A stretch of DNA of 35,491 nt from Streptomyces coryli (GTDB lineage: Bacteria > Actinomycetota > Actinomycetes > Streptomycetales > Streptomycetaceae), in NCBI RefSeq assembly GCF_011044975.1, contig NZ_JAAKZV010000062.1, positions 1-35,491 of the forward strand. The letters are read 5' to 3'. Each line of letters starts with the position of its first letter. Position 1 is the stretch's first letter. The notes beneath the pieces were generated by a model that made no database searches, was not told the origin of the DNA, and worked only from the letters and a program-made list of their open reading frames with translations. Below, piece after piece: positions 4,561-24,240 of this stretch. Made by a program: the position numbers and the translations under genes.

Positions 4561-4574
4561 ACCGATTGTTCGGT
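4561..4574. promoter_or_regulatory. PaaR-type palindromic operator in the bkdF leader
   Basis: ACCGATTGTTCGGT is a near-perfect inverted repeat (ACCGA / TCGGT arms). It differs by one base from 11407-11420 (ACCGATCATTCGGT, after a C/T and G/A step in the centre) or by one base from the paaA site read on the minus strand (ACCGATCGTTCGGT). It lies 32 nt upstream of the bkdF ATG and just downstream of a weak minus-strand promoter guess (TTGTCC at 4612-4617, 18-nt spacer, TAGCCA at 4588-4593), a position suited to repression. The binding protein is inferred to be the TetR product encoded at 10788-11390. Confidence 0.6.
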
Positions 4575-4607
4575 CGAGGGCACATTTTGGCTACCGTCAC
4601 CGATGGC

Positions 4608-4631
4608 CTGTGGACAAACGGTTCTCCACAG
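4608..4631. promoter_or_regulatory. Pair of inverted DnaA-box-like 9-mers between bkdF and bkdR
   Basis: TGTGGACAA at 4609-4617 is the exact reverse complement of TTGTCCACA, the preferred DnaA box of Streptomyces. Four bases on, TTCTCCACA at 4622-4630 is a one-mismatch box in the opposite orientation. Together they make the inverted repeat CTGTGGA / TCCACAG (4608-4614, 4625-4631). The TTGTCC part may also serve as the bkdF -35 hexamer. The repeat could instead be the BkdR (Lrp-type) operator. Confidence 0.45.
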
Positions 4632-4675
4632 ACTGGAATGGATGCCGGACGTCCATGCAGGGGAGGTGGTAAAGC

Positions 4676-5209
4676 GTGGCCGACGAACAGATGGCAGAAC
4701 TCCCGGCCGACCGGCCACAACCCGCGCCGCAGCCCGGACCACAACCCGGACCGCACCCCCGCCCACCGCGCCCGCTGGACGACATCGACCGCGCGATCAT
4801 CCGCCTGCTCCGCGCCGACGGCCGCGCCTCGATCCGCTCGGTCGCCGAGCAGGTCCACGTCTCGCGCGCAAACGCCTACGCCCGGATCAACAGACTCCTC
4901 GACGACGGCGTGATCCGCGGCTTCACCGCCCGCGTCGACCAGGAGCGGGCGGGCCAGGGCACATCCGCGTACATAACTCTCAAAATCGTGCAGAACACCT
5001 GGCGCTCGGTCCGCGAGCAGCTCGAGCGGCTGCCCGGCGCCGCCCACATCGCCCTCGTCGGCGGCGACTTCGACGTGCTGCTGCTGGTCCACACCTCCGA
5101 CAACCGCGCCCTGCGTGACCTGGTCCTCACCAGAATCCAGGCCATCCCGGAGGTGCTGTCGACCCGTACGCTGCTGGTCTTCGAGGAAACAGATCTACAG
5201 GAGAACTGA
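4676..5209 (+). CDS. bkdR: Lrp/AsnC-family regulator of the bkd operon
   Basis: A 177-residue Lrp/AsnC regulator. After a proline-rich N-terminal extension of about 33 residues containing tandem QPGP units, a winged helix-turn-helix runs from LDDIDRAIIRLLRADGRAS through VSRANAYARINRLLDDGVI (about 34-80). It is followed by the RAM ligand-binding domain (YITLKIV onward, ending LLVFEETDL). The GTG at 4676 is preceded by GGGAGGTGG at 7 nt. Divergent orientation to bkdF is the arrangement known for BkdR next to bkdFGH in other streptomycetes, where it controls branched-chain amino acid breakdown and so precursor supply for fatty acids and polyketides. Its stop overlaps the next start by one base, so the VOC gene is co-translated. 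Confidence 0.88.
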   Translation: MADEQMAELPADRPQPAPQPGPQPGPHPRPPRPLDDIDRAIIRLLRADGRASIRSVAEQVHVSRANAYARINRLLDDGVIRGFTARVDQERAGQGTSAYITLKIVQNTWRSVREQLERLPGAAHIALVGGDFDVLLLVHTSDNRALRDLVLTRIQAIPEVLSTRTLLVFEETDLQEN

Positions 5210-5604
5210 TGACAGAAGACCGCTGGCCGTTCATCCACCACATCGGCGTCTTCGTCTCGGACTACGACGCGAGCCTGCGCTTCTACTCGGCGGCCCTGGA
5301 GCCGCTGGGCGTCATCGCCGCCGGCGAGGCCGAGGGCGGCGTGGAGTTCTGGGAGAAGGACCGGGACACCCCGTCCATCGGCATCGCCCCGGTGCAGGGC
5401 GACGACCCGGTCACCCGCGGGGTGCACATCGGCTTCACCGCCGCCGACCGGGCGGCCGTGGACGCTTTTTACGAGGCGGCGCTGGCGGCGGGCGGCGTAT
5501 CGCGGCACGCGCCGCGGCTGTGGCCCGACTACCGCGCCTACTGCGCTTTCGTGAGCGACCCCGACGGCAACAACATCGAGGCGCTGCACAAGGAGACGAC
5601 CTAG
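5209..5604 (+). CDS. VOC-superfamily (glyoxalase / dioxygenase fold) protein
   Basis: A 131-residue single-domain vicinal-oxygen-chelate protein. It has paired beta-alpha-beta-beta-beta modules: HHIGVFVSDYDASLRFYSAAL at the N-terminus with a likely metal-ligand His, GVHIGFTA in the middle, and FVSDPDGNNIEALHKE at the C-terminus with the usual last-strand glutamate. These three residues fit the metal triad of glyoxalase I, dioxygenases and fosfomycin-resistance-type enzymes. The ATG shares one base with the bkdR stop (TGATG), indicating translational coupling. The substrate is unknown. Co-expression with bkdR may hint at a role in 2-oxoacid or acyl-CoA metabolism, but that is speculation. Confidence 0.85.
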   Translation: MTEDRWPFIHHIGVFVSDYDASLRFYSAALEPLGVIAAGEAEGGVEFWEKDRDTPSIGIAPVQGDDPVTRGVHIGFTAADRAAVDAFYEAALAAGGVSRHAPRLWPDYRAYCAFVSDPDGNNIEALHKETT

Positions 5605-5632
5605 GCCAGGTAAGGAGACGGCCCAGGCCGGT
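5590..5632 (+). repeat. Short imperfect tandem duplication
   Basis: Two adjacent units of 22 and 21 nt, both beginning AAGGAGACG and containing AGGCC, at 5590-5611 and 5612-5632. They differ at about three positions plus one indel. The first unit spans the stop codon of the VOC gene; the second ends just before the desA promoter. Probably a replication-slippage product. Confidence 0.6.
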
Positions 5633-5643
5633 TGAAGTAGGAC

Positions 5644-5676
5644 GGGTTACTAAGGTTAGGCTTACCTAAGTAACCC
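5644..5676. promoter_or_regulatory. Iron box (DmdR/IdeR operator) and desA promoter
   Basis: TAAGGTTAGGCTTACCTAA at 5651-5669 closely matches the actinobacterial iron box TTAGGTTAGGCTCACCTAA bound by iron-loaded DmdR/IdeR. The similarity extends into a 33-bp imperfect palindrome with GGGTTACT and AGTAACCC outer arms. A plausible promoter has TTGAAG at 5632-5637 and TAGGCT at 5657-5662, so the repressor would cover the -10 region. This explains iron-repressed control of desABCD, whose first ATG lies 33 nt downstream of the box. Confidence 0.9.
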
Positions 5677-5702
5677 GCCCTACGTCGTGAGGACACGCCT
5701 CC

Positions 5703-7190
5703 ATGAGGTCCCCCCACCTGCTCAACGACCGAACTGCCGAGGACTACCGCCGTACGGTCTCCGCAGGCGTCGAGCGCGTCGCCGCCCGACTGGCCCATGT
5801 CGACCGCCCGTTCACCGGAGTCTCGCCCCCAGATCTCGCCCCGCTGGTCGACGCCGTCGACCTGGAGCGGCCGCTGCCCGACGCCGCCGACGCGCTCGCC
5901 GAGCTGGACCGGCTCTATCTGCGCGACGCCGTCTACTTCCACCACCCCCGCTACCTCGCCCACCTCAACTGCCCGGTCGTCATCCCGGCCGTCCTCGGCG
6001 AGGCCGTGCTCTCCGCCGTCAACTCCTCCCTCGACACATGGGACCAGAGCGCCGGCGGCACCCTCATCGAGCGCCGCCTGATCGACTGGACCGCCGAGCG
6101 GATCGGCCTCGGCCCCGGCGCCGACGGCGTCTTCACCTCCGGCGGCTCCCAGTCCAACCTCCAGGCCCTGCTGCTCGCCCGCGACGAGGCCTGCGACGCG
6201 GTCCGTAAGGAAGAAGGCGCCGAGCTGCGCACCGCCGAGATCCTGCCCCGGCTGCGCATCCTCGCCTCCGCGGACGGCCACTTCTCCGTACGCAAAGCCG
6301 CCGCCGTCCTCGGCCTCGGCTACGAGGCGGTGATCCAGGTGCCGTGCGACGAGCACCGGCGGATGCAGCCCGCGGCGCTCGCCGCCGAACTGGCCCGGCT
6401 GCAGCGCGAGGGCCTGGTGCCGATGGCCGTCGCCGCCACCGCCGGCACCACCGACTTCGGCAGCATCGACCCGCTGCCGCAGATCGCCGGGCTCTGCGCC
6501 GGGTACGGCGTCTGGCTGCACGTGGACGCCGCGTACGGCTGCGGGCTGCTGGTCTCGGACCGGCGCCGGCACCTCCTGGACGGCATCGAACGGGCCGACT
6601 CGGTGACCGTCGACTACCACAAGTCCTTCTTCCAGCCGGTCAGTTCGTCCGCCGTCCTGGTCCGCGACCGGGCCACCCTGCGGCACGCTACGTACCACGC
6701 GGACTACCTCAATCCGGAGCGGATGGCCGCCGAGCAGATCCCCAATCAGGTCGACAAATCGCTCCAGACCACCCGCCGCTTCGACGCGCTCAAGCTCTGG
6801 CTGACGCTGCGCATCATGGGCGCCGACGGCATCGGCGAGCTCTTCGACGAGGTCTGCGACCGCGCCGCCCACGGCTGGCGGCTGCTGGCGTCCGACCCGC
6901 GCTTCGAGGTCGTCGTCGAGCCGCAGCTCTCCACCCTCGTCTTCCGTTACGTGCCCGAGGACGAGGCCGCGCCCCCCGAACTCGCCGACGCCGCCAATCT
7001 GCACGCCCGGCAGGCGCTCGCCGCCGCCGGCACCGCCGTCGTGGCCGGCACCAAGGTCGACGGCCGCGACCACCTGAAGTTCACCGTGCTCAACCCCGCG
7101 ACCAGCCTCGACGACATCGCCGCCGTCCTGGACCTGATCGCCGAGCACGCCTCCGCCTATGTGGGAGAAGCCCTTGTCCGCGCAGCCTGA
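5703..7190 (+). CDS. desA: DesA, PLP-dependent lysine decarboxylase of desferrioxamine synthesis
   Basis: A 495-residue group II pyridoxal-phosphate decarboxylase (fold type I) that converts L-lysine to cadaverine, the first step to desferrioxamines E and B. Seen in sequence: [17 protein letters not shown] (about 144-160), which holds the phosphate; HVDAAYGCG with D275 pairing to the pyridine nitrogen; and [17 protein letters not shown] with the Schiff-base lysine K307. The N-terminal [20 protein letters not shown] and [10 protein letters not shown] are family signatures. ATG at 5703 is preceded by a GTGAGGA ribosome site. First gene of desABCD; its end overlaps the start of desB. Identity as DesA rests on the complete operon and iron box as well as on similarity to diaminobutyrate/glutamate decarboxylases. 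Confidence 0.93.
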
Positions 7191-8448
7191 GCCCCGGATC
7201 CACGACTTCGTCGCCATCGGCCTGGGCCCCTTCAACCTGGGCCTGGCCTGCCTGACCGCCCCGCTGGACGACCTCGACGGCGTCTTCCTGGAGCGCAAGC
7301 CGGACTTCGACTGGCACTCCGGGATGTTCATCGAGGGCAGCCATCTGCAGACGCCGTTCATGTCGGACCTGGTCACCCTCGCCGACCCGACGTCGCCGTA
7401 CAGCTTCCTCAACTACCTCAAGCAGACCGGCCGGCTCTATCCCTTCTACATCCGGGAGAGCTTCTATCCGCTGCGCGAGGAGTACAACGACTACTGCCGC
7501 TGGGCCGCCGCCCAGCTGCCGAACATCCGCTTCGGCCAGGAGGTGGCGTCGGTCTCGTACGACGAACGTGTCTACTCCGTCCGTACTCAGGATGCGGTGC
7601 ACCGGGGCCGGCGGCTCGTTCTCGGCACCGGCACCCCGCCATACATCCCGGAGCCCTGCCGCGGCCTCGGCGGCGATCTGCTCCACAACGGCCGCTATCT
7701 GCACCACAAGGAGGCGCTGCAGGCCAAGGAGTCGATCACGATCGTCGGCAGCGGGCAGAGCGCCGCCGAGATCTATTACGACCTGCTGCAGGACATCGAC
7801 GGCCGCGGCTACCGGCTGAACTGGGTCACCCGCTCCCCGCGCTTCTTCCCGCTGGAGTACACCAAGCTGACGCTGGAGATGACCTCGCCGGAGTACATCG
7901 ACTACTTCCACGCGCTGCCCGCGCCGGACCGCGAGCGGCTCGGTGCCGCGCAGAAGCAGCTCTACAAGGGCATCAACTCCGAGCTGATCGACGGCATCTT
8001 CGACCTGCTGTACGCGAAGTCCCGGCGCGGCCCGGTGCCGACCCGGCTGCTCACCAACACCGCGCTGGTCTCGGCGTCGTACGAGAACGGGGCCTACACG
8101 CTCGGGCTGCGGCACGAGGAGCAGGGCCGGGACTTCGAGCTGGCGACCGAGGGGCTCGTGCTGGCCACCGGATACAGCTATCAGGAGCCGGAGTTCCTGG
8201 CCGGGGTGCGGGACCGGATCGCGCGCGACGACCGCGGCCGCTTCGCCGTCTCCCGCGACTACGCCATCGACCGCGCCGGCTCGGAGATCTACGTGCAGAA
8301 CGCCGAGCTGCACACCCACGGCTTCGCCGCCCCCGACCTCGGCATGGCCGCGTACCGGAACTCCTGCCTGATCCGGGAGCTCACCGGTCGCGAGGTCTAT
8401 CCGATCGAGAAGTCCATCGCTTTCCAGGAGTTCGGAGCGCCGGCATGA
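7174..8448 (+). CDS. desB: DesB, FAD-dependent cadaverine N-monooxygenase
   Basis: A 424-residue flavoprotein N-hydroxylase of the lysine/ornithine N-oxygenase family (relatives of IucD and PvdA) that makes N-hydroxycadaverine. The N-terminal FAD motif is [19 protein letters not shown]; the NADPH motif is [18 protein letters not shown] near the middle; the C-terminal FATGY-type motif reads [27 protein letters not shown] and [10 protein letters not shown] match family signatures. Start: the TTG at 7174 has GGAG at 7164-7167, a good spacing, and desD in this operon also uses TTG. The alternative ATG at 7159 has no visible ribosome site and would add MWEKP. Either choice overlaps desA. The stop overlaps desC (ATGA). 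Confidence 0.92.
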
Positions 8449-8993
8449 ATCTCTCCCTGCGCACCCTCGACCCCGCCGCCGACGCCGCGCTGCTGCACCG
8501 CTGGGTCACGCACCCCAAGGCCGCCTTCTGGCTGATGCAGGGGGCGAGTGTCGCGGACGTCGAGAAGGAGTACGCCCGCATCGCCGCCGACCCGTACCAC
8601 GACGCCTTCGTCGGCCTCGCCGACGGCGAGCCCGCCTTCCTCGTCGAGCGCTACGACCCCGCGCACCGCGAGCTGGACGGTGTCTACGCGGCCGAACCGG
8701 GCGATACCGGCATGCACTTCCTCACCGCGCCCGCCGGCCGCCCGGTGCACGGCTTCACCCGGGCCGTGATCACGCACGTCATGGAGTGGCTCTTCGCCGA
8801 CCCGGCGGTGCGCCGCGTCGTCGTCGAGCCCGATGCCCGTAACACCGCCGTGCACCGACTCAATGAGGCCGTCGGCTTCACCGTCGAGCGCACCGTCCGC
8901 CTGCCCGCCAAGGACGCGCTGCTGAGCTTCTGCACGCGGGAGCAGTTCGAGGCCGCCGCCACCGGCCCCGCCGTACGAGGAGCAATACGTTGA
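8445..8993 (+). CDS. desC: DesC, acyl-CoA N-acyltransferase (GNAT / AlcB type)
   Basis: A 182-residue GNAT-fold acyltransferase of the AlcB/RhbD siderophore branch. It acylates N-hydroxycadaverine with acetyl- or succinyl-CoA to form the hydroxamates. Family landmarks are the N-terminal [67 protein letters not shown], a [15 protein letters not shown] helix and [19 protein letters not shown], the acetyl-CoA-binding end of the fold. The start ATG overlaps the desB stop by four bases and has GGAG at 8434-8437. The stop overlaps the desD TTG start. Tight coupling suggests fixed stoichiometry. Confidence 0.92.
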
Positions 8994-10750
8994 GCACCGA
9001 TCACCTCACCCCCGACCGCTGGGCCCGGGCGACGCGCGAGCTGCTCGCCAAGGCGCTCGGCGAGTTCGCCCATGAGCGGCTGCTGACGCCTATGGCGCTC
9101 GAAGACGGGGCGTACGAGATACGCGCCGCCGACGGCACCGCCTACCGCTTCACCGCCCGCCGCCACGCCCTGGACCACTGGCGCGTCGACCCCGCGTCCG
9201 TGACCCGCCTCCGGGACGGCGCCGAACTGCCGCTGGACGCCCTGGCGTTCTTCACCGAGCTCCGCGACGAGCTGGGGCTGAGCGATACGGTCCTCCCGGT
9301 CTATCTGGAGGAGGTCACCTCCACGCTCGCCAGCGCGGCGTACAAGCTGGCCAAGCCGGAGCTGACCGCGGCGGAGCTGGCCGCCGCCGGCTTCCAGGAG
9401 ATCGAGGCCGGCATGACCGAGGGCCATCCCTGCTTCGTCGCCACCAACGGCCGGCTCGGTCTCGGCGTCGCCGACTTCCGGGCCTACGCGCCCGAGACCG
9501 GGTCGCCCGTCCGCCTGATCTGGCTCGCCGCCCACCGCGACCGCGCCGCCTTCGCGCACACCGCCGGGCTCGACCACGACACGCTCATGCGCGCCGAGCT
9601 GGGCGCGGCGGCTCTGGCCCGCTTCGACGAGCGGCTGCGGGCGCTCGGCCTGGATCCGGCGGACTACCTGCTGCTGCCTGTGCACCCCTGGCAGTGGGAG
9701 CACAAGCTCGCGGTCACCTTCGCCGGGGAGGTCGCCGCGCGGCGTCTGGTGTACCTCGGCGAGAGCGAGGACGCGTACCAGGCGCAGCAGTCGATCCGCA
9801 CCTTCTTCAACACCAGCCGCCCGGACCGGCATTACGTGAAGACCGCGCTCTCCGTCCTCAACATGGGCTTCATGCGCGGCCTGTCCGCCGCCTATATGGA
9901 GGCGACCCCGGCCATCAACGACTGGCTCGCCGGTGTGGTCGAGAAGGACGAGGTGCTGCGGGCCACCGGGCTGGAGATCATCCGCGAGCGGGCGGCGATC
10001 GGCTACCGGCACGCGGGGTACGAGGCGGCCACGGCCAAGGGCTCCCCGTATCGCAAGATGCTCGCCGCGCTGTGGCGGGAGAGCCCGGTGCCGGGGCTCG
10101 CGCCCGGCGAACGGCTGTCCACCATGGCGGCGCTGCTGCACACCGACCGGTCGCAGCGGCCGCTGGCGGCCGAGCTGATCGCGGGCTCCGGGCTGGAGCC
10201 GCGGGCGTGGCTGCGGCGCTATCTGGATGCCTATCTCGTGCCGCTGCTGCACTGCTTCTACGCGTACGGCCTGGTGTTCATGCCGCACGGCGAGAACGTG
10301 ATCCTGGTCCTGGACGAGGACGGGGCGGTGCGGCGCGCGCTCTTCAAGGACATCGCCGAGGAGATCGCGGTGATGGATCCGGATCTGCCGCTGCCGCCGG
10401 AGGTGGAGCGCATCCGGGCCGAGGTGCCGGAGGAGATGCAGCTGCTGTCGGTCTTCACCGATGTCTTCGACTGCTTCTTCCGCTTCCTCGCACCGCTGCT
10501 GGATGAGGCGGGTGTGCTGGACGCCGGGGACTTCTGGGCGGAGGTCGCGGCGTGTGCGCGCGATTACCAGGACGCCCATCCGGAGCTGCGGGAGCGGTTC
10601 GCGCGGCATGACCTCTTCGCGGCGGAGTTCCAGCTGTCCTGTCTGAACCGGCTGCAGCTGCGCAACAACGAGCAGATGGTCGATCTGGAGGATCCGGCCG
10701 GGGCGCTCCAGATGGCGGGGCGGCTGGTCAATCCGCTCGCCGGTCGGTAG
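8990..10750 (+). CDS. desD: DesD, NIS siderophore synthetase (IucA/IucC family)
   Basis: A 586-residue NRPS-independent siderophore synthetase that uses ATP to join N-hydroxy-N-succinylcadaverine units and close the ring to desferrioxamine E. Landmarks: EGHPCFVATNGRLGLG (about 144-159) in the ATP-binding half, LLLPVHPWQWEHKL with HPWQWEH at 232-238, SIRTFFNTSRPDRHYVKTALSVLN, and MPHGENVILVL in the ferric-reductase-like C-terminal half. The start is TTG at 8990 with GAGGAG just upstream and a four-base TTGA overlap with desC; the length is normal for DesD. Last gene of the operon, followed by a perfect 14-bp inverted repeat that serves as a shared terminator with the converging tetR gene. No siderophore exporter or desEF uptake and release genes are adjacent. 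Confidence 0.94.
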   Translation: MSTDHLTPDRWARATRELLAKALGEFAHERLLTPMALEDGAYEIRAADGTAYRFTARRHALDHWRVDPASVTRLRDGAELPLDALAFFTELRDELGLSDTVLPVYLEEVTSTLASAAYKLAKPELTAAELAAAGFQEIEAGMTEGHPCFVATNGRLGLGVADFRAYAPETGSPVRLIWLAAHRDRAAFAHTAGLDHDTLMRAELGAAALARFDERLRALGLDPADYLLLPVHPWQWEHKLAVTFAGEVAARRLVYLGESEDAYQAQQSIRTFFNTSRPDRHYVKTALSVLNMGFMRGLSAAYMEATPAINDWLAGVVEKDEVLRATGLEIIRERAAIGYRHAGYEAATAKGSPYRKMLAALWRESPVPGLAPGERLSTMAALLHTDRSQRPLAAELIAGSGLEPRAWLRRYLDAYLVPLLHCFYAYGLVFMPHGENVILVLDEDGAVRRALFKDIAEEIAVMDPDLPLPPEVERIRAEVPEEMQLLSVFTDVFDCFFRFLAPLLDEAGVLDAGDFWAEVAACARDYQDAHPELRERFARHDLFAAEFQLSCLNRLQLRNNEQMVDLEDPAGALQMAGRLVNPLAGR

Positions 10751-10766
10751 CGCCCGGCGGGGCTTT

Positions 10767-10815
10767 GGCTTTCGCGGGGCGAGCGGGCTACGGCGTCCGC
10801 AGCCCCGCGAAAGCC
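10767..10815. terminator. Bidirectional terminator-like hairpin between desD and tetR
   Basis: GGCTTTCGCGGGGC at 10767-10780 pairs perfectly with GCCCCGCGAAAGCC at 10802-10815, with a 21-nt loop. The right arm lies inside the last codons of the converging tetR gene (stop at 10788-10790), and the left arm begins 16 nt after the desD stop. There is no T-run, as is usual in high-GC actinomycetes. Confidence 0.7.
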
Positions 10816-11390
10816 ATCCGCACCACGGACTCCGCGACCTCGCCGTTCGCGGCGGCGCCGTGTGCCTGGGGGCGGTACCACTCGGCGATGGAGTTGATCA
10901 TGCCGAAGAGGAGGCGGGTGGCCAGGCGGACCTCCACGTCGGCGCGGATGTCGCCGTCGGCCGCCGCCTGCTTGAGGAGGTCGGCGACGCGGTGGTCGAA
11001 CTCGCGGCGGCGCTCCATCGCCCAGCGCTCGGTGTCCGTATTGCCGCGGACCCGCAGGAGGAGGGTGACGTACGGCAGCTCCGCCATCAGCACCTCGGTG
11101 GTGCGGCGGGTGACGTATTCGAGGCGGTCGACCGCTTTGCCCTCTTTCGCGCCGTCCTCGTCCAGGACGCCGAAGAGGCCGTCGAGGGCGCGGCTTATGG
11201 CGCGGCGGAGCAGCTCTTCCTTGCTGCGTACGTGGTGGTAGATGGAGGACTTGGAGATGCCGGCGGCCTTCGACAGGTGCTCCATCGAGGTGCCGTCGTA
11301 GCCGCGCTCGATGAAGACGCCGACGGCTACGGCGAGGAGGGACTCGGGTGTGTAGGTGTCCCTCTTGGTGGTCCCGGTCAAGTTATCCAC
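10788..11390 (-). CDS. TetR-family repressor, probable PaaR of phenylacetate catabolism
   Basis: A 200-residue TetR-family regulator. The N-terminal helix-turn-helix covers LLAVAVGVFIERGYDGTSMEHLSKAAGISKSSIYHHVRSKEELL (about 18-61). The rest is the variable ligand-binding domain, containing FDHRVADLLKQAAADGDIRADVEVRLATRLLFGMINSIAEWY. It starts with GTG at 11390 behind AGAGGGG, and the start codon lies inside a DnaA-box 9-mer. It is divergent from paaN, and the 14-base palindrome between them recurs upstream of paaA and bkdF, so I infer that it represses those genes and responds to phenylacetyl-CoA, as PaaR does in other actinobacteria. It is not likely to regulate desABCD, which it faces tail to tail and which has its own iron box. 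Confidence 0.82.
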   Translation of the reverse strand: MDNLTGTTKRDTYTPESLLAVAVGVFIERGYDGTSMEHLSKAAGISKSSIYHHVRSKEELLRRAISRALDGLFGVLDEDGAKEGKAVDRLEYVTRRTTEVLMAELPYVTLLLRVRGNTDTERWAMERRREFDHRVADLLKQAAADGDIRADVEVRLATRLLFGMINSIAEWYRPQAHGAAANGEVAESVVRMAFAGLRTP

Positions 11391-11391
11391 A
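11383..11391 (+). promoter_or_regulatory. Perfect DnaA box
   Basis: TTATCCACA, the classical bacterial DnaA box, overlaps the GTG start codon of the tetR gene on the other strand. One of three perfect TT(A/G)TCCACA 9-mers in the window. Two lie between genes and this one lies at a gene start. Confidence 0.4.
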
Positions 11392-11398
11392 GCCCCTC

Positions 11399-11426
11399 TT
11401 GTCCCGACCGATCATTCGGTTACTGT
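11399..11426 (+). promoter_or_regulatory. paaN promoter with embedded PaaR-type operator
   Basis: A promoter reading toward paaN can be drawn as TTGTCC (11399-11404), a 16-nt spacer and TACTGT (11421-11426). The palindrome ACCGATCATTCGGT (11407-11420) fills the spacer exactly, so a bound repressor would block RNA polymerase. The same site is 16 nt upstream of the tetR start and could give autoregulation. Promoter hexamers are eye-read and uncertain; the palindrome itself is plain. Confidence 0.65.
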
Positions 11427-11489
11427 AATCGAGACCGCAGGCCACGCCCAGCTCAACGGTGAGCTGGCTGCCAGGAGGGGATGGTCCGC

Positions 11490-13175
11490 ATGACCGCCGC
11501 GCTCAAGCCCGACATGCTGCAGACCCGGCATCGCGCCACGCTGGACCGCGCGCTGGAGGCGATTCGCACGCGGGAGTTCTGGTCCCCGCACCCCGAGCAC
11601 CCGAAGGCGTACGGCGAGACCGCGGGCGCGGACGGCAAGGCCGCCTTCGAGGCGCTGCTCGGCGGCCGCTTCGAGCTCGACCAGCCGGGGACGGACGGCT
11701 ATACGGGCCCGACCGAGACCTCGCCGTACGGGATCGAGCTGGGCGTCGACTATCCGCACGCCGATCCCGACGTGCTGCTCCCGGCCATGCGCGCGGCGAT
11801 GCCCGCCTGGCGGGACGCCGGGCCCGAGACCCGGGCGCTGGTGTGTCTGGAGGTCCTGTCCCGGATCTCCGCGCGCACGCATGAGTTCGCGCATGCCGTC
11901 ATGCACACCAGCGGGCAGGCCTTCATGATGGCGCTGCAGGCGGGCGGGCCGCATGCGCAGGACCGCGGGCTCGAGGCGGTGGCGTATGCCTATGCCGAAC
12001 AGACCCGGGTGCCCGGGCAGGCCTCCTGGTCGAAGCCGCAGGGCAAGCGCGATCCGCTGGAGCTGTCCAAGTCCTTCACCGCGGTGCCGCGCGGCATCGG
12101 GCTGGTGGTGGGGTGCAACACCTTCCCGACCTGGAATGGCTATCCGGGGCTCTTCGCCTCGCTGGCCACGGGCAATGCGGTGCTGGTCAAGCCGCATCCG
12201 CGGGCGGTGCTGCCGCTGGCGATGACGGTCAAGGCCGCGCGTGAGGTGCTGACCGAGGCGGGCTTCGACCCGAATCTGATCGCGCTGGCCGCAGAGCGGC
12301 CGGGCGAGGGGCTCGCCAAGACCCTGGCCACCCGGCCCGAGGTGCGGATCATCGACTACACCGGATCGACCGCCTTCGGCGACTGGCTGGAGGCCAACGC
12401 CCGCCAGGCGCAGGTCTATACGGAGAAGGCCGGCGTGAACACGGTCGTCATCGACTCCACCGACGACTATGCGGGGATGCTGGGCAACCTCGCCTTCTCC
12501 CTCTCGCTCTACAGCGGCCAGATGTGCACCACTCCGCAGAACCTCCTCATCTCACGGGAGGGCATCGCCACCGACGCGGGCCACAAGGCGTACGACGATG
12601 TGGTGTCCGACCTCGCGGCCGCCGTCGGCAAGCTGCTCGGCGACGACGCACGGGCGGCGGCGCTGCTGGGGGCGCTCGTGAACCCCGGCGTGAAGGAGCG
12701 GCTGGAGGCCGCGCCCGGCCTCGGTGAAGTGGCGCTGGCCTCGCGGGCGGTGGCGCATCCGGAGTTCTCCGGGGCCACGGTCCGTACGCCGGTGATCGTC
12801 AAGCTCGACGGCGCCAAGCCGGACGCGGAAGCCGCGTATATGTCGGAGTGCTTCGGGCCGGTGGCGTTCGCGGTGGCCGTGGACTCGACGGCCGATGCGG
12901 TGGAGCTGCTGCGCCGGACGATCCGCGAAAAGGGCGCGATGACCGTCGGCGGCTACACCACCTCCCCCGAGGTGGAGCAGCAGATAGAGACGGCCTGCCT
13001 GGAAGAGCCGGCGCAGCTGTCGCTGAATCTGACGGGCGGGGTGTACGTGAACCAGACCGCGGCCTTCTCCGACTTCCACGGCTCGGGTGGCAACCCCGCC
13101 GCCAACGCGGCGCTGTGCGACCCGGCGTTCGTGGCCAACCGCTTCCGGACGGTGGAGGTCAGGCGACAGGCCTGA
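11490..13175 (+). CDS. paaN: PaaN-type aldehyde dehydrogenase of phenylacetate degradation
   Basis: A 561-residue aldehyde dehydrogenase-fold protein of the PaaN group. It has the N-terminal signature REFWSPHPEHPKAYGE, the active-site loop VVGCNTFPTWNGYPG (N216 of TWN), VYTEKAGVNTVVID with the general-base glutamate E312, and LYSGQMCTTPQ with the nucleophile C346. The C-terminus (LNLTGGVYVNQTAAFSDFHGSGGNPAA) is the usual closing segment. In the paa pathway this enzyme oxidises the aldehyde formed after opening of the oxepin-CoA ring. Here it lacks the fused hydratase domain found in PaaZ, so another protein would have to open the ring. Start: ATG at 11490 has AGGAGGGG at a proper distance; the ATG at 11481 is only 2 nt from that site. 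Divergent from tetR and far from paaABCDE. Confidence 0.88.
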   Translation: MTAALKPDMLQTRHRATLDRALEAIRTREFWSPHPEHPKAYGETAGADGKAAFEALLGGRFELDQPGTDGYTGPTETSPYGIELGVDYPHADPDVLLPAMRAAMPAWRDAGPETRALVCLEVLSRISARTHEFAHAVMHTSGQAFMMALQAGGPHAQDRGLEAVAYAYAEQTRVPGQASWSKPQGKRDPLELSKSFTAVPRGIGLVVGCNTFPTWNGYPGLFASLATGNAVLVKPHPRAVLPLAMTVKAAREVLTEAGFDPNLIALAAERPGEGLAKTLATRPEVRIIDYTGSTAFGDWLEANARQAQVYTEKAGVNTVVIDSTDDYAGMLGNLAFSLSLYSGQMCTTPQNLLISREGIATDAGHKAYDDVVSDLAAAVGKLLGDDARAAALLGALVNPGVKERLEAAPGLGEVALASRAVAHPEFSGATVRTPVIVKLDGAKPDAEAAYMSECFGPVAFAVAVDSTADAVELLRRTIREKGAMTVGGYTTSPEVEQQIETACLEEPAQLSLNLTGGVYVNQTAAFSDFHGSGGNPAANAALCDPAFVANRFRTVEVRRQA

Positions 13176-13183
13176 CCTCCACC
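13151..13183. terminator. Bidirectional terminator overlapping the paaN stop
   Basis: GGTGGAGGTCAGG (13151-13163) pairs perfectly with CCTGACCTCCACC (13171-13183); an extra C-G closes a 14-bp stem with a 5-nt loop. The right arm contains the paaN stop codon (13173-13175). The converging sugar permease gene ends 28 nt further on, so the hairpin can end both transcripts. Confidence 0.8.
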
Positions 13184-13210
13184 CCCGGGGCAGGCGGCGG
13201 GTGGTGAGGG

Positions 13211-14443: not shown

Positions 14444-14452
14444 GGCGCAGCC

Positions 14453-17196: not shown

Positions 17197-17204
17197 GGGG
17201 TTGG

Positions 17205-18197: not shown

Positions 18198-18208
18198 GAG
18201 CTTCCCTT

Positions 18209-18222
18209 GTTCGAGATTTCGT
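18209..18222. promoter_or_regulatory. 14-base motif upstream of the U32-like gene, shared with the dehydratase leader
   Basis: GTTCGAGATTTCGT here is identical to 20493-20506 upstream of the enolase-family gene. Both copies lie 12-21 nt before the start codon of a leftward gene and both are followed by a TTCCCTT (AAGGGAA on the coding strand) ribosome-site block. Just beyond this copy is the palindrome GTACGACGTAC (18221-18231). Candidate site for the divergent IclR regulator. Confidence 0.5.
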
Positions 18223-18255
18223 ACGACGTACGGGACGAGCGGCGCGCTGCTTCGC

Positions 18256-18279
18256 AAAACCGGCGCGCGCCGACGCGCC
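18256..18279 (-). terminator. Terminator-like hairpin after the zinc dehydrogenase gene
   Basis: On the minus strand GGCGCG and CGCGCC (18279-18274 and 18267-18262) form a short stem with a 6-nt loop, followed by GGTTTTG, a brief T-run at 18259-18256. It begins 11 nt after the dehydrogenase stop. It may separate dehydratase-dehydrogenase transcripts from the U32/importer transcript. Confidence 0.4.
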
Positions 18280-18289
18280 CCCGGGGCGC

Positions 18290-19312
18290 TCAAGGCGCCT
18301 GAGGCACCAGCAGCACCTTCCCGGTCTTCGGATCGCCACCGCCGACCAGCGCGATCGCGTCCGCGAACCGCTCCAGCGGCAGCGCGTGCGTCACCAGCGG
18401 CGCCGGGCGCAACAGCCCGGTCCCGAAGGCCCGTACCGCGTCCGTCCAGGCCGCCGAAGGGGCGCCGAAGATGCTGCGGACGGTCAGCTGGCTCAGCGAC
18501 AGATGCACCGGGTCGATGCCCTCGGCCCCGGGCGTGAACATCCCGGTCAGCACCACCCGCCCGCCCCGCCGCGCCAGCCGGCACGACGCGGCCGCGGTGC
18601 TCGGCGCGCCCGCGGTCTCCACGACCAGGTCGAAGCGGCCCTCGTACGAGCTGGCCGCGCCCGGCGCCAGCGCGGCGGTGGCCCCGAACGGCTCGGCCTG
18701 CGCGGCCCGTTCGGTGCGCGGGTCGATCACCACCAGCTCGGCGGGCGAGTACGCCGCCAGCAGCTGCGTCGCGAGCAGGCCCAGCGTCCCGGCGCCCACC
18801 ACGGCGATCCGCTCCCCTGGCCGCACCTCCGCGGCCCGTACCGCGGCGGTGCTCACCGCCGCCGGCTCCAGCAGCGCGGCCGCGCGCAGGTCGGCGTCGG
18901 CGGGCAGCAGGTGCAGCAGCCGGGCGGGCACGGTCAGATGCTCGGCGAAGCCGCCGGGCTCGGTGAACCCGGTCTCCGCGTACCCGGCGGTGCACAGGCT
19001 GGTCTCGCCGTAGCGGCAGCGCCGGCAGACACCGCAGGCGCGAAAGCCCTCGGCGACCGTCTTACGGCCCACCAGCCCCGGGTCGACGTCCTCGCCGACC
19101 GCCTCGACGATCCCGGCCCACTCATGCCCGGGCACGACGGGGTAGCGGACATACGCGGCGTCCCGGTGGCCGTCGTACACCTCCCGGTCGCTGGCGCAGA
19201 TCCCGGCCGCGGCGACCCGTACGAGCACCTCGCCGGACCGCGGCCGCGGCGTCTCGCGCTCGACCAGCCGGTGCGCGCCCGGCCGGTCGATGATGATCGC
19301 CCGGCTGCTCAC
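18290..19312 (-). CDS. Zinc-dependent medium-chain alcohol/polyol dehydrogenase
   Basis: A 340-residue MDR-family dehydrogenase. Catalytic zinc ligands are C39 (GICASD) and H63-E64 (PGHEWAG); the structural zinc lobe has C93, C96, C99 and C107 ([16 protein letters not shown]). The Rossmann domain starts at [17 protein letters not shown] and has the acidic residue of [10 protein letters not shown], favouring NAD(H). Relatives are sorbitol, threonine and L-gulonate or galactitol-type dehydrogenases. Start: GTG at 19312 overlaps the stop of the upstream dehydratase by four bases, and [11 protein letters not shown] begins the conserved fold; a longer form from inside the upstream gene is unlikely. 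Probably oxidises the hydroxyl of a sugar, sugar acid or polyol handled by this operon. Confidence 0.88.
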
Positions 19313-20472
19313 TCGGGCTTCCTCCGCTCCCATCCCTCGGCCCACAGGTCGAACCGGGCCCGCTGCTGCGGGAATTCGGCCGCCGCGTCCACGTCCAGCT
19401 CGACGCCGAGGCCCGGCGCATGGCTGATCTCGAAGCAGCCCGTCTCCGGATCGATCTGCGGGGCGCCGGAGACCACCTTCTTGATCTCCGCGTCCGCGAA
19501 GTCGTTGAAGTGCTCCAGGACCTTGAAGTTCGGGGTGCAGGCGGCGAGCTGCAGGGAAGCGGCGGTGAGCACCGAGCCGCCGACGTTGTGCGGGGCGACC
19601 AGCATGTAGTGGGTCTCGGCCGTGGCCGCCAGCTTGCGGGTCTCCAGGATGCCGCCGATGTGCCCGAGGTCGGGCTGGATGATGTCGGCGGCCTGCGACT
19701 CGAAGAGCTCGCGGAACTCGATCCGGTCGTGGATCCGCTCCCCGGTCGCCACCGGGATGTCGACCTTCGCGGCGACCTTCTCGAGGGCCTTGAGGTTCTC
19801 CGGCGGCACCGGCTCCTCCAGCCAGGCCGGGCGGAACGGTGCCATGTCCTTCGCCAGCCGGACCGCGGTCGACGGGCTGAACCGGCCGTGCATCTCCAGC
19901 ATCAGCTCGGCCTCGGGCCCGATGGCGTCCCGTACCGCCTCGATCAGCGAGACCGCGTACCGGGTCTGCTCGTAATCGAGCTCGAAGTGCCCGGTCCCGA
20001 ACGGGTCGATCTTCAGGGCGCGATAGCCGCGCGCGACGACCTCGCGGGCGGCCGCGTGGTACGCCTCGGGCGTCCGCTCCGTGGTGTACCAGCCGTTCGC
20101 GTACGCCTTGACCTGGTCCGTGGCACCCCCCGCCCGGCCGCCCAGCAGCTGCCAGACGGGGACGCCGAGCGCCTTGCCCTTGATGTCCCAGCAGGCCATC
20201 TCGATGACGGCGATGCCGGACATGACGATTTCGCCGGCCCGGCCGTAGTCGCCGTACTTCATCCGCTTTACGAGATCTTCGACCGCGAACGGGTCGGACC
20301 CGGCGATATGGTTGGCCTCAGCCTCGCGGAGGTAGCCGACGAGCGCGTCGGTGTGGCCGAGCATGCGGGTCTCGCCGACGCCGGTGAGGCCTTCGTCGGT
20401 GTGGACGAGGACGTAGGTGAGGTTGCGCCAGGGTGTCCCGACGACGTGGGTGGTGATTCCGGTGATGCGCAA
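19309..20472 (-). CDS. Enolase-superfamily sugar-acid dehydratase (mandelate racemase / galactonate dehydratase group)
   Basis: A 387-residue member of the mandelate racemase subgroup. The N-terminal capping domain contains ETRMLGHTDALVGYL and GIAVIEMACWDIKGKALGVPVWQLLGG. The barrel shows ALKIDPFG (K154), LMLEMHGRFSP (E193, H195), WLEEPVPPEN (E219/E220), VATGERI (E245), DIIQPDLGHIGGI (D268) and VAPHNVGG (H295). E193, E220 and E245 are the expected Mg2+ ligands and H295 with D268 the acid/base pair. These sit well with aldonate dehydratases such as D-galactonate dehydratase, but the sugar acid cannot be fixed. The start is TTG at 20472 behind AAGGGAA. First gene of the leftward operon, divergent from the IclR regulator. 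Confidence 0.88.
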   Translation of the reverse strand: MRITGITTHVVGTPWRNLTYVLVHTDEGLTGVGETRMLGHTDALVGYLREAEANHIAGSDPFAVEDLVKRMKYGDYGRAGEIVMSGIAVIEMACWDIKGKALGVPVWQLLGGRAGGATDQVKAYANGWYTTERTPEAYHAAAREVVARGYRALKIDPFGTGHFELDYEQTRYAVSLIEAVRDAIGPEAELMLEMHGRFSPSTAVRLAKDMAPFRPAWLEEPVPPENLKALEKVAAKVDIPVATGERIHDRIEFRELFESQAADIIQPDLGHIGGILETRKLAATAETHYMLVAPHNVGGSVLTAASLQLAACTPNFKVLEHFNDFADAEIKKVVSGAPQIDPETGCFEISHAPGLGVELDVDAAAEFPQQRARFDLWAEGWERRKPE

Positions 20473-20492
20473 GGCAGCGTTCCCTTGGGCTC

Positions 20493-20506
20493 GTTCGAGA
20501 TTTCGT
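20493..20506. promoter_or_regulatory. 14-base motif in the leader of the dehydratase gene
   Basis: GTTCGAGATTTCGT, identical to 18209-18222, 21 nt upstream of the TTG start. The inverted repeat ATTTCG-N9-CGAAAT (20500-20520) overlaps it. Its recurrence at two promoters of the same catabolic block and its position at the transcription start zone suggest a regulator site. Confidence 0.5.
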
Positions 20507-20593
20507 CATGCGTTCGAAATGCTGGCGTGACCGTAATCAGCGCACAGGGGGGTGTCAATGGTCTGCACACGGGTTAGCGTGTGTTCGTCATAC

Positions 20594-20606
20594 CGACCAT
20601 TGGTCG
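20594..20606. promoter_or_regulatory. Palindrome upstream of the IclR gene
   Basis: CGACCATTGGTCG is a 13-base inverted repeat with one central base, 30 nt upstream of the IclR ATG. It differs from the 14-base motif in front of the catabolic genes and could be an autoregulatory site. Its outer ACCGACC resembles PaaR-type arms, but the spacing differs and I do not count it among them. Confidence 0.4.
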
Positions 20607-20635
20607 AGTTCCCGAACGAGGGTGGGTGAAGGGAC

Positions 20636-21403
20636 ATGGGCCGCCTCGTCCCCGCGGTGACCAGAGCGCTGGACATACTGGAGTTGTTCCTGCAGGGCGA
20701 CGGCACGCTGTCCGCCCCCGAGATCGTGCAGAAGACCCAGCTCCCCCGCACCACGGTGCACGAGCTGGTGACCACCCTGGCCGCGCGCTCGTACCTGGTG
20801 CCCGTACCGGAGCAACAGGGGCGCTTCCGCCTGGGCGTCCGGACGTATCAGCTGGGCAGCCGCTACGCCGAGCAACTCGACCTCGCCGCCGAGGGCCAGC
20901 GGGTCGCCCGCGAGGTCGCGGACACATGCGGCGAGACGGTGCACGTGGCCGTCCTCGAGGACGCCGACGTCATATACATCGCCAAGGTCGACTCCACGCA
21001 CGCGGTGCGGATGGTCTCGGCCGCGGGCCGCCGGCTGCCCGCGCACTGCACCTCGGTGGGCAAGATGCTGCTGGCGTCGCTGCCGCCCGACGCGCTCGAA
21101 GAGCAGCTGGGCAAGGGCGAGTTGCAGCCGATGACGCCCAACAGCATCACCGACCGCGACAAGCTGCGCGCCGCCCTGCAGGACATCCGCGAGACCGGCA
21201 TCGCCGCCGAGCACCAGGAGTCCAACCCGGACGTGAGCTGCGTGGCCGCGCCGGTACGGGACCGGAGCGGGCGGGTCGTGGCCGCACTGTCGATCTCGGT
21301 GCCGGTGACGCGCTGGACGGAGCAGCGCGAGGAGGAGCTGGCGGAGCTGGCGGCGAAGGGCGCGAGCGACCTGTCGGGTCGGCTGGGGTTCCGCGGGCGT
21401 TAG
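20636..21403 (+). CDS. IclR-family transcriptional regulator
   Basis: A 255-residue IclR regulator. The winged helix-turn-helix spans AVTRALDILELFLQGDGTLSAPEIVQKTQLPRTTVHELVTTLAARSYL (about 7-55). The effector domain includes ETVHVAVLEDADVIYIAKVDS, LPAHCTSVGKMLLASLP and the usual end SCVAAPVRDRSGRVVAALSISVPVTRW, where SC-AAP is the ligand-pocket signature. ATG at 20636 follows GTGAAGGG. Divergent from the dehydratase-dehydrogenase-importer block, so it most likely controls uptake and breakdown of that sugar or sugar acid. Its stop codon overlaps that of the converging methyltransferase gene by a few bases, leaving no room for a terminator. Confidence 0.92.
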   Translation: MGRLVPAVTRALDILELFLQGDGTLSAPEIVQKTQLPRTTVHELVTTLAARSYLVPVPEQQGRFRLGVRTYQLGSRYAEQLDLAAEGQRVAREVADTCGETVHVAVLEDADVIYIAKVDSTHAVRMVSAAGRRLPAHCTSVGKMLLASLPPDALEEQLGKGELQPMTPNSITDRDKLRAALQDIRETGIAAEHQESNPDVSCVAAPVRDRSGRVVAALSISVPVTRWTEQREEELAELAAKGASDLSGRLGFRGR

Positions 21404-22113: not shown

Positions 22114-22137
22114 GGCGGCCAGCTTACGAGGACGCGG

Positions 22138-23361
22138 TCACCGCAGCGGCGTCCCCGATTCCACATCGGCGGGAGCGGACTGGCGCGGGGCCTTGAGAGC
22201 GGCGGGCTCCGCCGCCCGCCGCCGCCGCCCGATGAGCCGGTCCCGCCCGGCCACCGTCCACCCGCCGATCCACATCAGGAAGACCGTCGGCAGGAACACC
22301 GCGTCCGCCGCGATCATGGCGAGCGAGAAGAACGGCAGCCCCAGGATCACGGCGATCGACGCGTGCTCGATGATCATCAACGCCAGCAGCACGTTCTTGA
22401 TCCGCCGGTTGAAGAGCGTGAACGGGAACGCCACCTGCACGATCACGGTGCCGTACGTGATGATCATGACCATCGTGCCGCTGCCGCCCAGCGTGTCCGA
22501 CAGCGCCGGCCAGGGCGTGAAGTAATCGAGGTGCAGCGGGTAGTGCAGCGCCGTGCCGTCCTGCCAGAGGGTGCCCTGCACCTTGTACCAGCCGGCGGTG
22601 GCGTACACGAAGACGACCTGGACCATGATGATCAGCAGGCCCGCGTTGTGCACCAGATTGGCGAGCTGGTCGCAGACCGTGCGCGGCTCGCCGGGCCAGA
22701 GCCGCTGCACCATCCACCAGACCGCCTGCGCCAGCCACAGCCCGTAGAAGATCAGCGCCCAGCCCCAGCTGAGATGACCGAGCAGGGTGGCGGCCAGCAG
22801 CCCGAAGCCCAGCACCGACCAGAGCCAGACGCCGACGGCGTCGCGCGGGGGCGCGTCGGGTGCGGTACGCGCCCGGCGGCGGGCGTCGAGCGACCAGACC
22901 TGGCCGCAGCGGGTGAGGACGAGATAGATCGCCACCAGGTGGATGACGTTGTCGCCGCCGTCCCCCATGAAGACGCTGCGGTTCTGCAGCGACAGCACGC
23001 CGATCATGAACAGCACGGACATCGTCCGGGTCCGCCAGCCCAGCATCAGCGCCAGGGACGCGAGCACGGCGAGCCCGTAGACGATCTCGAAGAAGGCGTC
23101 CGAGTCCGACCACATCAGCACGGTGAAGGCGTCGTTGAGCTGCAGCAGCTGCTCGGCCAGGCCCCGGCTCCAGGGCGAGTCGGGCCCGTAGAGCTCATGC
23201 CGGTGCGGGAACTCGCGCAGCAGGAACAGCAGCCAGGTCAGCGCGAAGCCGATGCGCACGACGGCGGTCTGATACGGGCCGAGGGCCTGCCGCGTCACGC
23301 GCTCGACGGCGCGGGTCACGGCGTGCTCGACGCGGGTGACGTTGGTGGCGTTGGCGCTCAC
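22138..23361 (-). CDS. HTTM-domain membrane protein (vitamin-K-dependent gamma-carboxylase-like)
   Basis: A 407-residue polytopic membrane protein of the HTTM family, distantly related to animal gamma-glutamyl carboxylase. About seven to eight hydrophobic helices are visible, beginning AVVRIGFALTWLLFLLREF. Signature segments are VLSLQNRSVFMGDGGDNVIHLVAIYLVLTRCG, VFVYATAGWYKVQGTLWQDGTALHYPLHLDYFTPWPAL and VQVAFPFTLFNRRIKNVLLALMIIEHASIAVILGLPFFSLAMIAADAVFLP. The start GTG at 23361 overlaps the stop of the DUF5819 gene by four bases and has GGGAGGGGAG before it. Its role in streptomycetes is unknown; carboxylation or a quinone reaction at the membrane is possible by analogy only. Confidence 0.85.
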   Translation of the reverse strand: MSANATNVTRVEHAVTRAVERVTRQALGPYQTAVVRIGFALTWLLFLLREFPHRHELYGPDSPWSRGLAEQLLQLNDAFTVLMWSDSDAFFEIVYGLAVLASLALMLGWRTRTMSVLFMIGVLSLQNRSVFMGDGGDNVIHLVAIYLVLTRCGQVWSLDARRRARTAPDAPPRDAVGVWLWSVLGFGLLAATLLGHLSWGWALIFYGLWLAQAVWWMVQRLWPGEPRTVCDQLANLVHNAGLLIIMVQVVFVYATAGWYKVQGTLWQDGTALHYPLHLDYFTPWPALSDTLGGSGTMVMIITYGTVIVQVAFPFTLFNRRIKNVLLALMIIEHASIAVILGLPFFSLAMIAADAVFLPTVFLMWIGGWTVAGRDRLIGRRRRAAEPAALKAPRQSAPADVESGTPLR

Positions 23362-24071
23362 TGGCCGCTCCCCTCCCAGCTGCTCCACGTCTCGCGGTCA
23401 CCCTTCTGCAGGTCCGCCGTGGTCACCTGCCACCACCCCAGCTGCCGGTACGAGGACTGGGTCGAGCGCTTGTCCGCGCTCCAGTCGGGCGCGGCCAGCG
23501 GCGTCACCTCGGCGCGCAGCTGGATGGACTGCACCTTGCCGTCGTTGAGGACGGGGCCGAAGCGCAGCATCACGATCCGCTTCAGGTACTGCTCGGAGAG
23601 CTCGCCGCGGACGCCGTTGGGGCGGTTCTTCTCGTCGTGGGAATTGATGAAGTAGTCCCAGGCGCGGCGGAGCTCGTTCTGCTCGGTGTGCGAGGGCGCC
23701 GGGTTGTGCTTGATCGCCTCGGCGTCCTGCGCGGAGAGGTTGACCCAGGGGGTCTGCTCGGTCGAGCCGTCCTTCTTCTGCACCTCGGCGCGGGCCTGGA
23801 CGTCGATGTTCTGCTGCAGCGGGTTGGGGGCGAAGAGCTTCCAGTTCTGCTCGAACTCCGGCAGCACATAGCCGTCGATGGTCTCCTTGTGCTGCTTGCT
23901 CACCGTGTTCGGCGGCGAGACGTACAGGAAGACCGTGGCCAGGTGCCATGCCGTAAAGCCGAGGACGACGGCGACGGCCAGCGCCATGAAGATCTGCGCG
24001 GGCAGCGAAAGGCGGCCCGGCGACTCCTCCGCCCCGGATATGCCGGACTCGTCCGGCGCTCGCGACTCCAT
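23358..24071 (-). CDS. DUF5819-family membrane-anchored protein
   Basis: A 237-residue protein with a short acidic cytoplasmic tail, one N-terminal membrane helix (about 24-51, [20 protein letters not shown] onward) and an extracellular domain with the family hallmark [30 protein letters not shown]. It ends in two tryptophan-rich segments ([24 protein letters not shown]). It is translationally coupled to the downstream HTTM gene, and the pairing of the two families is familiar in Streptomyces, so they probably act as one complex. Start chosen at ATG 24071; an ATG 30 nt upstream (24101, [10 protein letters not shown]) is also possible. Neither has a strong ribosome site. Function unknown. Confidence 0.82.
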
Positions 24072-24193
24072 ACCCCCGACTACCTCACAGCCTGTGGTCA
24101 TCAGCTCACTGCCGACTGACGTCGGCACGCTACCCCCCGGCGCCCCACCCGCGCAGGGCCGATCGGGACACGCTTCGATCGGGGGAGCCGACC

Positions 24194-24240
24194 TTGACAG
24201 GGTACGAGGCCGCACCCGACCATGGAACCGAACGATCGGT
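24194..24240 (+). promoter_or_regulatory. paaA promoter with PaaR-type operator
   Basis: TTGACA (24194-24199) with an 18-nt spacer leads to a weak -10 GACCAT (24218-24223). Directly after it, ACCGAACGATCGGT (24227-24240) is a palindrome that fits ACCGNNCGNNCGGT, the core I recall for PaaR operators in corynebacteria. Read on the other strand it differs by single central bases from the copies at 4561 and 11407. It ends 36 nt before the paaA start and would sit over the transcription start. Confidence 0.75.

Follow-up and report, generated by a model that had tools for sequence, protein, structure and literature searches.

We examined a 35,491-bp stretch of the Streptomyces coryli genome (GCF_011044975.1, NZ_JAAKZV010000062.1, forward strand; hereafter the window) in which a TetR-family regulator gene, paaR, lies between the 2-oxoacid dehydrogenase operon bkdFGH and the phenylacetate genes paaN and paaABCDE. 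An earlier note on this DNA had proposed that the TetR protein is PaaR and that one operator type, present at the bkdF, paaN and paaA promoters, makes bkdFGH an additional target. We compared the window with its relatives, whose fetched loci carry L numbers below and whose genomes carry G numbers. The relevant features are as follows.

923..2317, minus strand: bkdH, E2 acyltransferase (matches E2 families with scores below cut-off)
2317..3375, minus strand: bkdG, E1 beta (matches E1-beta families with scores below cut-off)
3372..4529, minus strand: bkdF, 2-oxoacid dehydrogenase E1 alpha (TIGR03181, 424.7 bits against a cut-off of 411.35, on the longer open reading frame 3372-4766)
4561..4574, minus strand: predicted PaaR-type operator at bkdF, reading ACCGAACAATCGGT along bkdF transcription, core TTGT
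4588..4617, minus strand: putative bkdF promoter TTGTCC-18-TAGCCA, kept across an 80-sequence alignment, with 13 nt from the -10 box to the operator
4676..5209, plus strand: bkdR, Lrp/AsnC-type regulator divergent from bkdF (Pfam HTH_AsnC-type and AsnC_trans_reg)
10788..11390, minus strand: paaR, TetR-family regulator (Pfam TetR_N and TetR_C_24; phmmer against 2iai_A, E 5.5e-91)
11399..11426, plus strand: putative paaN promoter TTGTCC-16-TACTGT with the operator inside its spacer, kept across an 81-sequence alignment
11407..11420, plus strand: predicted PaaR-type operator in the paaR-paaN intergenic region, within the -35/-10 spacer of the paaN promoter, core TCAT
11481..13175, plus strand: paaN (NCBIfam TIGR02288 PaaN_2, 949.9 bits against a cut-off of 578.75)
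24194..24223, plus strand: putative paaA promoter TTGACA-18-GACCAT, from the relatives' alignment, with 3 nt from the -10 box to the operator
24227..24240, plus strand: predicted PaaR-type operator at paaA, just past the -10 box, core TCGT on the minus strand
24277..25224, plus strand: paaA, first gene of paaABCDE (Pfam PaaA_PaaC)
25170..27779, plus strand: paaB, paaC, paaD and paaE, overlapping open reading frames 25170-25505, 25502-26206, within 26029-26715, and 26592-27779 (starts approximate)

The dehydrogenase operon was recognized as bkdFGH by its consecutive E1 alpha, E1 beta and E2 genes and the divergent Lrp/AsnC-type bkdR; TIGR03181, the model passed by the E1 alpha protein, is named pyruvate dehydrogenase E1 alpha, and sequence models leave the substrate unsettled. 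The products of paaB to paaE belong to the Pfam families PaaB; PaaA_PaaC; PaaD zinc ribbon and FeS_assembly_P; and Fer2/FAD/NAD. Three features point to PaaR as the identity of the TetR protein: both Pfam domains score above cut-off and its best solved-structure match is close (SCO3833, PDB 2IAI, presumably from S. coelicolor given the SCO prefix), its gene adjoins paaN in the window and in relatives, and ACCG/CGGT-type arms occur at paa promoters, unlinked ones included. The 2IAI entry bears only its depositors' label, putative regulator. A ScbR-type gamma-butyrolactone receptor was rejected as an identity (NCBIfam NF041196, 60.2 bits against a cut-off of 150).

Three predicted operators and their conservation at the core locus

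The exact pattern ACCGANNNNTCGGT (arms ACCGA-N4-TCGGT) occurs three times in the window against 0.07 expected, a count reached in 0 of 100 shuffles, and the pattern with an AT-type core, ACCGAWYRWTCGGT, occurs three times against 0.00 expected. These are the three 14-mers picked out in the earlier note, which lie where it placed them and are the sole exact matches to ACCGANNNNTCGGT in the window. Its description of them as palindromes holds for the perfect 5-bp arms ACCGA/TCGGT and fails for the 4-bp cores, which are not self-complementary. With the paaA copy read on the opposite strand, the only differences among them are at the two central bases, and their placement, in the spacer at paaN and just past the -10 box at paaA and bkdF, fits the relatives' alignments, with the boxes themselves predicted from sequence. 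Both kinds of position are ones from which a bound protein would be expected to act as a repressor.

To place these sites in context, we used the 80 loci that were best by likeness to the TetR protein among the matches listed, of which 79 have Streptomyces in their titles and one has Actinacidiphila. As far as the loci extend, their genes run paaABCDE, paaN, a PaaH-like gene in most, paaR, bkdR and bkdFGH. The exact bkdF 14-mer ACCGATTGTTCGGT was found in all 79 loci that reach the place (L003 ends before it), and in 78 of these it lies between the bkdR and bkdF matches, the contig of L016 stopping before bkdF. A site also lies upstream of paaN in 80 of 80 loci (78 with ACCGAACGATCGGT and 2 with ACCGAATGTTCGGT, locus strand) and upstream of paaA in all 60 loci containing that gene, where one site has a CC core. 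Of 66 full-length loci, 13 are without paaA (L025 is truncated at the operator), and all 13 retain the bkdF site. G086 has no PaaA match and retains the bkdF and paaN sites despite the absence of paaABCDE; in its locus (L113), a site precedes an acyl-CoA dehydrogenase gene where relatives have paaA. The bkdF site is likewise intact in L188 and L189, where 2-7 kb of other genes separate paaR from bkdR, as in the window. The PaaH-like gene before paaR, as seen in L008, encodes a 3-hydroxyacyl-CoA dehydrogenase that scores 590 bits with the PaaH model, below its cut-off of 669.4, and above cut-off with the broader model PRK08268.

The cores differ between promoters: TTGT at bkdF, TCGT at paaA and most paaN promoters, and TCAT at paaK and some paaN promoters (the window, G054 and G111). 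Different yet steady cores of this kind suggest tuned affinities.

In an alignment of 80 bkdF leaders (the window included), the three columns after the site (AGG) are invariant, compared with 6 of 132 other columns; the invariance of the 14-mer itself is by construction, because rows were chosen for holding it. The invariant AGG would suit an element that works as RNA, through a hairpin or a translational element, rather than as a PaaR operator, as would the location of the site 3' of the predicted start region and its capacity for a 5-bp stem with a 4-nt loop. We find this explanation hardly credible, as the same arms at paaN lie within the putative -35/-10 spacer, which that promoter would leave untranscribed, and the site lies anywhere from 55 to 201 bp from the bkdF start across 53 loci, and 31 bp from it in the window.

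A second element, TT(A/G/T)TCCACA, lies upstream of the operators, with window copies at 4609-4617 (minus strand) and 11383-11391 (plus strand). Across L001-L080 it was found at 78 of 79 bkdF sites (54 with inverted copies too), 78 of 80 paaN sites and 58 of 62 paaA sites, and we take its letters to be those of a DnaA box. The longer form TTDTCCACAG was dropped as a paa- or bkd-specific element: three genomes hold 33-55 copies each (control, 1-4), and it may therefore be the site of a broader regulator, with BkdR and DnaA among the candidates.

Sites across the genus

We then searched 150 genomes drawn evenly across the genus. The exact 14-mer ACCGATTGTTCGGT was present in 146, in a single copy in each, compared to one match in all 150 for the reversed control pattern. 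PaaR (E <= 1e-40) and PaaA (E <= 1e-60) were each found in 147 genomes, and of the 147 PaaR-encoding genomes, 146 had the 14-mer, which was absent from all three that lack PaaR. Outside this set, G280 (L190, 5430) carries a second exact ACCGATTGTTCGGT besides the one at bkdF, within an open reading frame with a STAND-type NTPase domain and WD40 repeats; the 11 kb fetched around it held no match to the paa or bkd query proteins.

For genome-wide scans, the loose pattern ACCGANNNNTCGGT proved too permissive, with 17-32 matches per genome compared to 2-10 for the control in eight genomes, an excess of about 2- to 11-fold. The tight AT-core pattern ACCGAWYRWTCGGT gave 3-5 matches per genome in 12 relatives and none for the control. 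Its 48 matches comprise 12 at bkdF, 12 at paaN, 12 at paaA (paaN and paaA assigned by position beside the PaaR and PaaA places), 10 at an unlinked paaK and 2 elsewhere (G064 and G051), which makes bkdFGH the only recurrent target outside the paa genes. The earlier note had named frequent occurrence of the 14-mer at unrelated promoters as grounds for abandoning its proposal; with 2 of 48 matches elsewhere in the 12 relatives scanned, the window's own genome not being among them, this did not materialize.

PaaK was first named by eye and then confirmed on L114 (TIGR02155, 697 bits against 646.3), and a paaK site is present in G002, outside the 12, as well. Two of the 10 paaK sites (L159 and L165) lie between paaK and a paaH-like gene (39-41% identity), with ACCGATCATTCGGT as the site (1983 in L159, 1980 in L165). 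In these two genomes, the paaN core is of the window type and paaR directly adjoins the paaN site. G003 (L116, 4862), also outside the 12, has an exact ACCGAACGATCGGT flanked by genes for WhiB and a UvrD-type helicase, by chance or as another target.

These scans also bear on whether another TetR-family protein, recognizing a similar 14-mer, binds the bkdF site. The excess of loose matches implies that other operators of such shape may exist, and the bkdF core TTGT differs from the TCGT of paaA and paaN. Set against this, 46 of the 48 tight matches fall at paa or bkdF promoters with no other promoter recurring, a private core is not unusual, as paaK has one too (TCAT), and the adjacent paaR encodes an obvious binder in all 146 genus genomes with the 14-mer. 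Overall, we regard a different binder as quite improbable.

Sites also occur away from the core locus. In the genus set, 33 paaA matches have 74-79% identity (distal) compared to 86-93% for the core-locus type. Of the 20 distal places fetched, 16 have AACGAA(T/C)GGTCGGT within ~250 bp upstream of paaA, 15 of them as AACGAATGGTCGGT. Fourteen of these 16 genomes have one PaaR match and two (G093 and G075) have a second PaaR-like protein, which weakens the distal sites as proof of action in trans in those two. In G093 the second protein (58%, C1:155929-156495) is encoded ~7 kb from the distal paaA (C1:163432-164334), whose promoter has AACGAACGGTCGGT, and because of this proximity the paralogue could be the binder there. 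Some distal paa clusters may thus have their own PaaR.

Predicted control of bkdFGH by PaaR

The sites, their positions, their conservation and their near-exclusive distribution in relatives are direct observations. Read together, they make it very probable that PaaR represses bkdFGH through the bkdF operator and that phenylacetyl-CoA relieves this repression; binding, repression and ligand are predictions. As a TetR dimer, PaaR would bind ACCGA-N4-TCGGT at paaN/paaR, paaABCDE and bkdF, plus the unlinked paaK in relatives. Bound just downstream of the -10 box at bkdF, it would block transcription of bkdFGH. If phenylacetyl-CoA releases it, as for the Corynebacterium glutamicum protein, the 2-oxoacid dehydrogenase complex would come on together with the phenylacetate genes. 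The proposal that the TetR protein is PaaR, using one common operator and controlling bkdFGH in addition to the paa genes, thus appears sound, given the 79 of 79 loci, the 146 of 150 genomes, the near-exclusive distribution and the independent sites at paaK and distal paaA.

PaaR might instead bind at bkdF and mainly control the divergent bkdR, or only fine-tune bkdFGH, an alternative that shares the binding step with direct repression. The site does lie within the shared bkdF-bkdR intergenic region, the private core of bkdF could mean weaker binding, and full repression would be costly because a bkd deletion in S. avermitilis reportedly left only straight-chain fatty acids (PMC10331944). In the window, the site stands on the bkdF side, 13 nt past the putative bkdF -10 box and ~100 bp from the bkdR start, and we consider this alternative unlikely.

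Several observations weigh against control of bkdFGH by PaaR. The co-occurrence of the 14-mer with PaaR is not independent evidence, because their genes lie next to each other, paaR beside the bkd genes, in every locus we looked at. The three PaaR-less genomes are no test of whether the site persists without PaaR, because bkdF is absent or only distant there: no bkdF match reaches E <= 1e-60 in G009, the matches in G127 are at 39% only, and the one in G044 is at 61%. In G018, where PaaR is diverged (71%, the lowest-scoring best match of the 147), a site is present at paaR and none at bkdF. The near-exclusiveness of the tight pattern is partly fitted, since its AT core was chosen after seeing the three cores of the window, although paaK and distal paaA were unused in that choice. 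Four of the 20 distal paaA promoters have no site (G018 with its diverged PaaR, G044 with no PaaR match, and G146 and G147, which have a core-type paaA as well), and neither do the bkdFGH copies beside distal or foreign paa clusters in G044, G393, G355 and G408. Finally, the bkdF 14-mer was found in 0 of 36 outgroup genomes tested, including seven with a PaaR-like protein.

These outgroups come from a class-wide set of 296 genomes, 95 of which have a bkdF match at E <= 1e-110. In 28 the match has at least 74% identity; 9 of these were already in the genus set, and the other 19 all have both PaaR (E < 1e-90) and the bkdF 14-mer. From the remaining 67 genomes came the 36 tested, 10 of which hold one or two tight sites each and 7 of which encode a PaaR-like protein (47-66% identity). 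Among these seven, a tight site lies at paaA in G370, G430 and G223, at paaK in G370 and, with a GC-richer core, at paaK in G223; in G184 the sites at paaA and paaR combine exact arms with GC-richer cores, and G379 has a one-mismatch site at paaA. The one tight site fetched from G353 has no paa match in its region, and no site was found in G393. By locus, the arms occur, in genomes whose PaaR-like protein has 56-66% identity, at paaA in L183, L184, L185 and L187 and at paaK in L184 and L185, and the paa cluster of G370 is far from PaaR. No site adjoins bkdF in the seven genomes (L145, L146, L153, L154, L155, L156 and L134). The recognition-helix stretch is TKSAIYHHV in the outgroup proteins (SKSSLYHHI in L183) compared to SKSSIYHHV in the PaaR of the window. 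Because outgroups carry the arms at paaA and paaK yet none of the 36 has the bkdF 14-mer, bkdFGH seems to have been recruited only in the Streptomyces lineage, as an addition to an older paa regulon.

Two explanations of why bkdFGH would belong to this regulon can be offered: coupling of branched-chain with aromatic catabolism, or production of phenylacetyl-CoA from phenylpyruvate by BkdFGH itself. Under the second, BkdFGH would be partly a phenylpyruvate dehydrogenase, turning phenylalanine-derived phenylpyruvate into phenylacetyl-CoA, on which PaaABCDE acts and which probably serves as the PaaR ligand, and PaaR would thus govern both its makers and its consumers; we hold this to be conceivable but on balance doubtful. 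In its favour, among 39 bkdF regions fetched at under 74% identity (L118-L156, 3.4-19.9 kb), 3 contain paa genes (L134, L140 and L144), and two of the three are second bkd copies in Streptomyces-type genomes (G408 and G355; also L171 and L172). In G393 (L134/L173), bkdR, bkdFGH, paaK, paaABCDE and a PaaR-like gene lie within ~13.4 kb, and in G044 (L112), examined because the 14-mer is absent there, bkdFGH lies upstream of paaABCDE on the same strand, with ~0.9 kb from bkdH to paaA. In addition, a pyruvate-dehydrogenase-like pair of S. pristinaespiralis, PglB/C, is the proposed catalyst for converting phenylpyruvate to phenylacetyl-CoA (PMC7089894). Counting against it, the PaaR motif stands at none of the bkd promoters beside paa genes (G044, G393, G355 and G408), and a search of these genomes for another operator common to paa and bkd promoters gave none convincing at bkdF. 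The branched-chain dehydrogenase also supplies starters for polyketides such as avermectin, in line with a title cited by PMC10331944. It is reported to supply isobutyryl-, isovaleryl- and 2-methylbutyryl-CoA for branched fatty acids, which bkd deletion in S. avermitilis removes (PMC10331944), a result that therefore speaks for branched-chain substrates and against phenylpyruvate.

If PaaR does respond to phenylacetyl-CoA at bkdF, aromatic catabolism across Streptomyces would be linked to the supply of precursors for membranes and antibiotics, and deletion of paaR or feeding of phenylacetate would offer a simple lever on that supply. SCO3833 (2IAI) would then be assigned a regulon. Were BkdFGH to act on phenylpyruvate as well, PaaR would control both makers of phenylacetyl-CoA (PaaK and BkdFGH) plus its consumers, in one feed-forward circuit.

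PaaR and its motif are already known from other systems, and bkdFGH as a target is a well-supported computational prediction that would newly extend the known regulon. The PaaR of C. glutamicum is a TetR repressor of paa genes with the core ACCGNNCGNNCGGT and phenylacetyl-CoA as ligand. It resembles the present system as a TetR-type regulator of paa genes and in its ACCG/CGGT arms, whereas the bkdF core described here has TG rather than CG at its centre, and we know of no bkd target in that species. In S. coelicolor and S. avermitilis, where bkdR adjoins bkdFGH, the regulator gene and cluster are of the same type; the named regulator is BkdR (both appear in titles cited by PMC10331944), whereas we found no published PaaR input. 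In S. pristinaespiralis, PaaR (SSDG_03033; Zhao et al. 2015) is described as a TetR regulator of paa genes (PMC10933834, PMC7089894) and reported to repress them, with AACGA-N4-TCGGT tabulated as its putative site (PMC10933834); the same form stands at 16 of the 20 distal paaA promoters we fetched. These reviews tie it to the paa cluster only, and 'bkd' occurs in neither of them. The Thermus thermophilus PaaR, TTHA0973, is also a TetR regulator of paa genes, whose deficiency raises paa transcripts; it differs in its operator (consensus AACnAACGTTnGTT), and the available text mentions no 2-oxoacid dehydrogenase (PMC6651687). We found no open-access paper joining PaaR with bkdR, or bkdF with Streptomyces and phenylacetate, or naming SCO3833, although an earlier mention in Zhao et al. 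2015 is possible.

Neighbouring genes in the window

The wide spacing of the three operators is peculiar to the window, where one block of genes separates bkdR from paaR and another separates paaN from a SpoU-type methylase gene. The first (5209-10750) contains a glyoxalase-family gene and a desABCD-like siderophore block, with a PLP decarboxylase, Lys/Orn monooxygenase, GNAT acyltransferase and IucA/IucC synthetase, and the repeat TAAGGTTAGGCTTACCTAA at 5651-5669 resembles what we take to be an iron box. The second (13211-21403) holds a sugar-type ABC transporter (permease, ATPase and binding protein), a zinc alcohol dehydrogenase, a mandelate racemase/enolase-superfamily gene and an IclR regulator. 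In L169 and L170, which have the window's paaN core in common, paaN and the SpoU-type methylase gene are close together and all three sites lie inside 6.6 kb.

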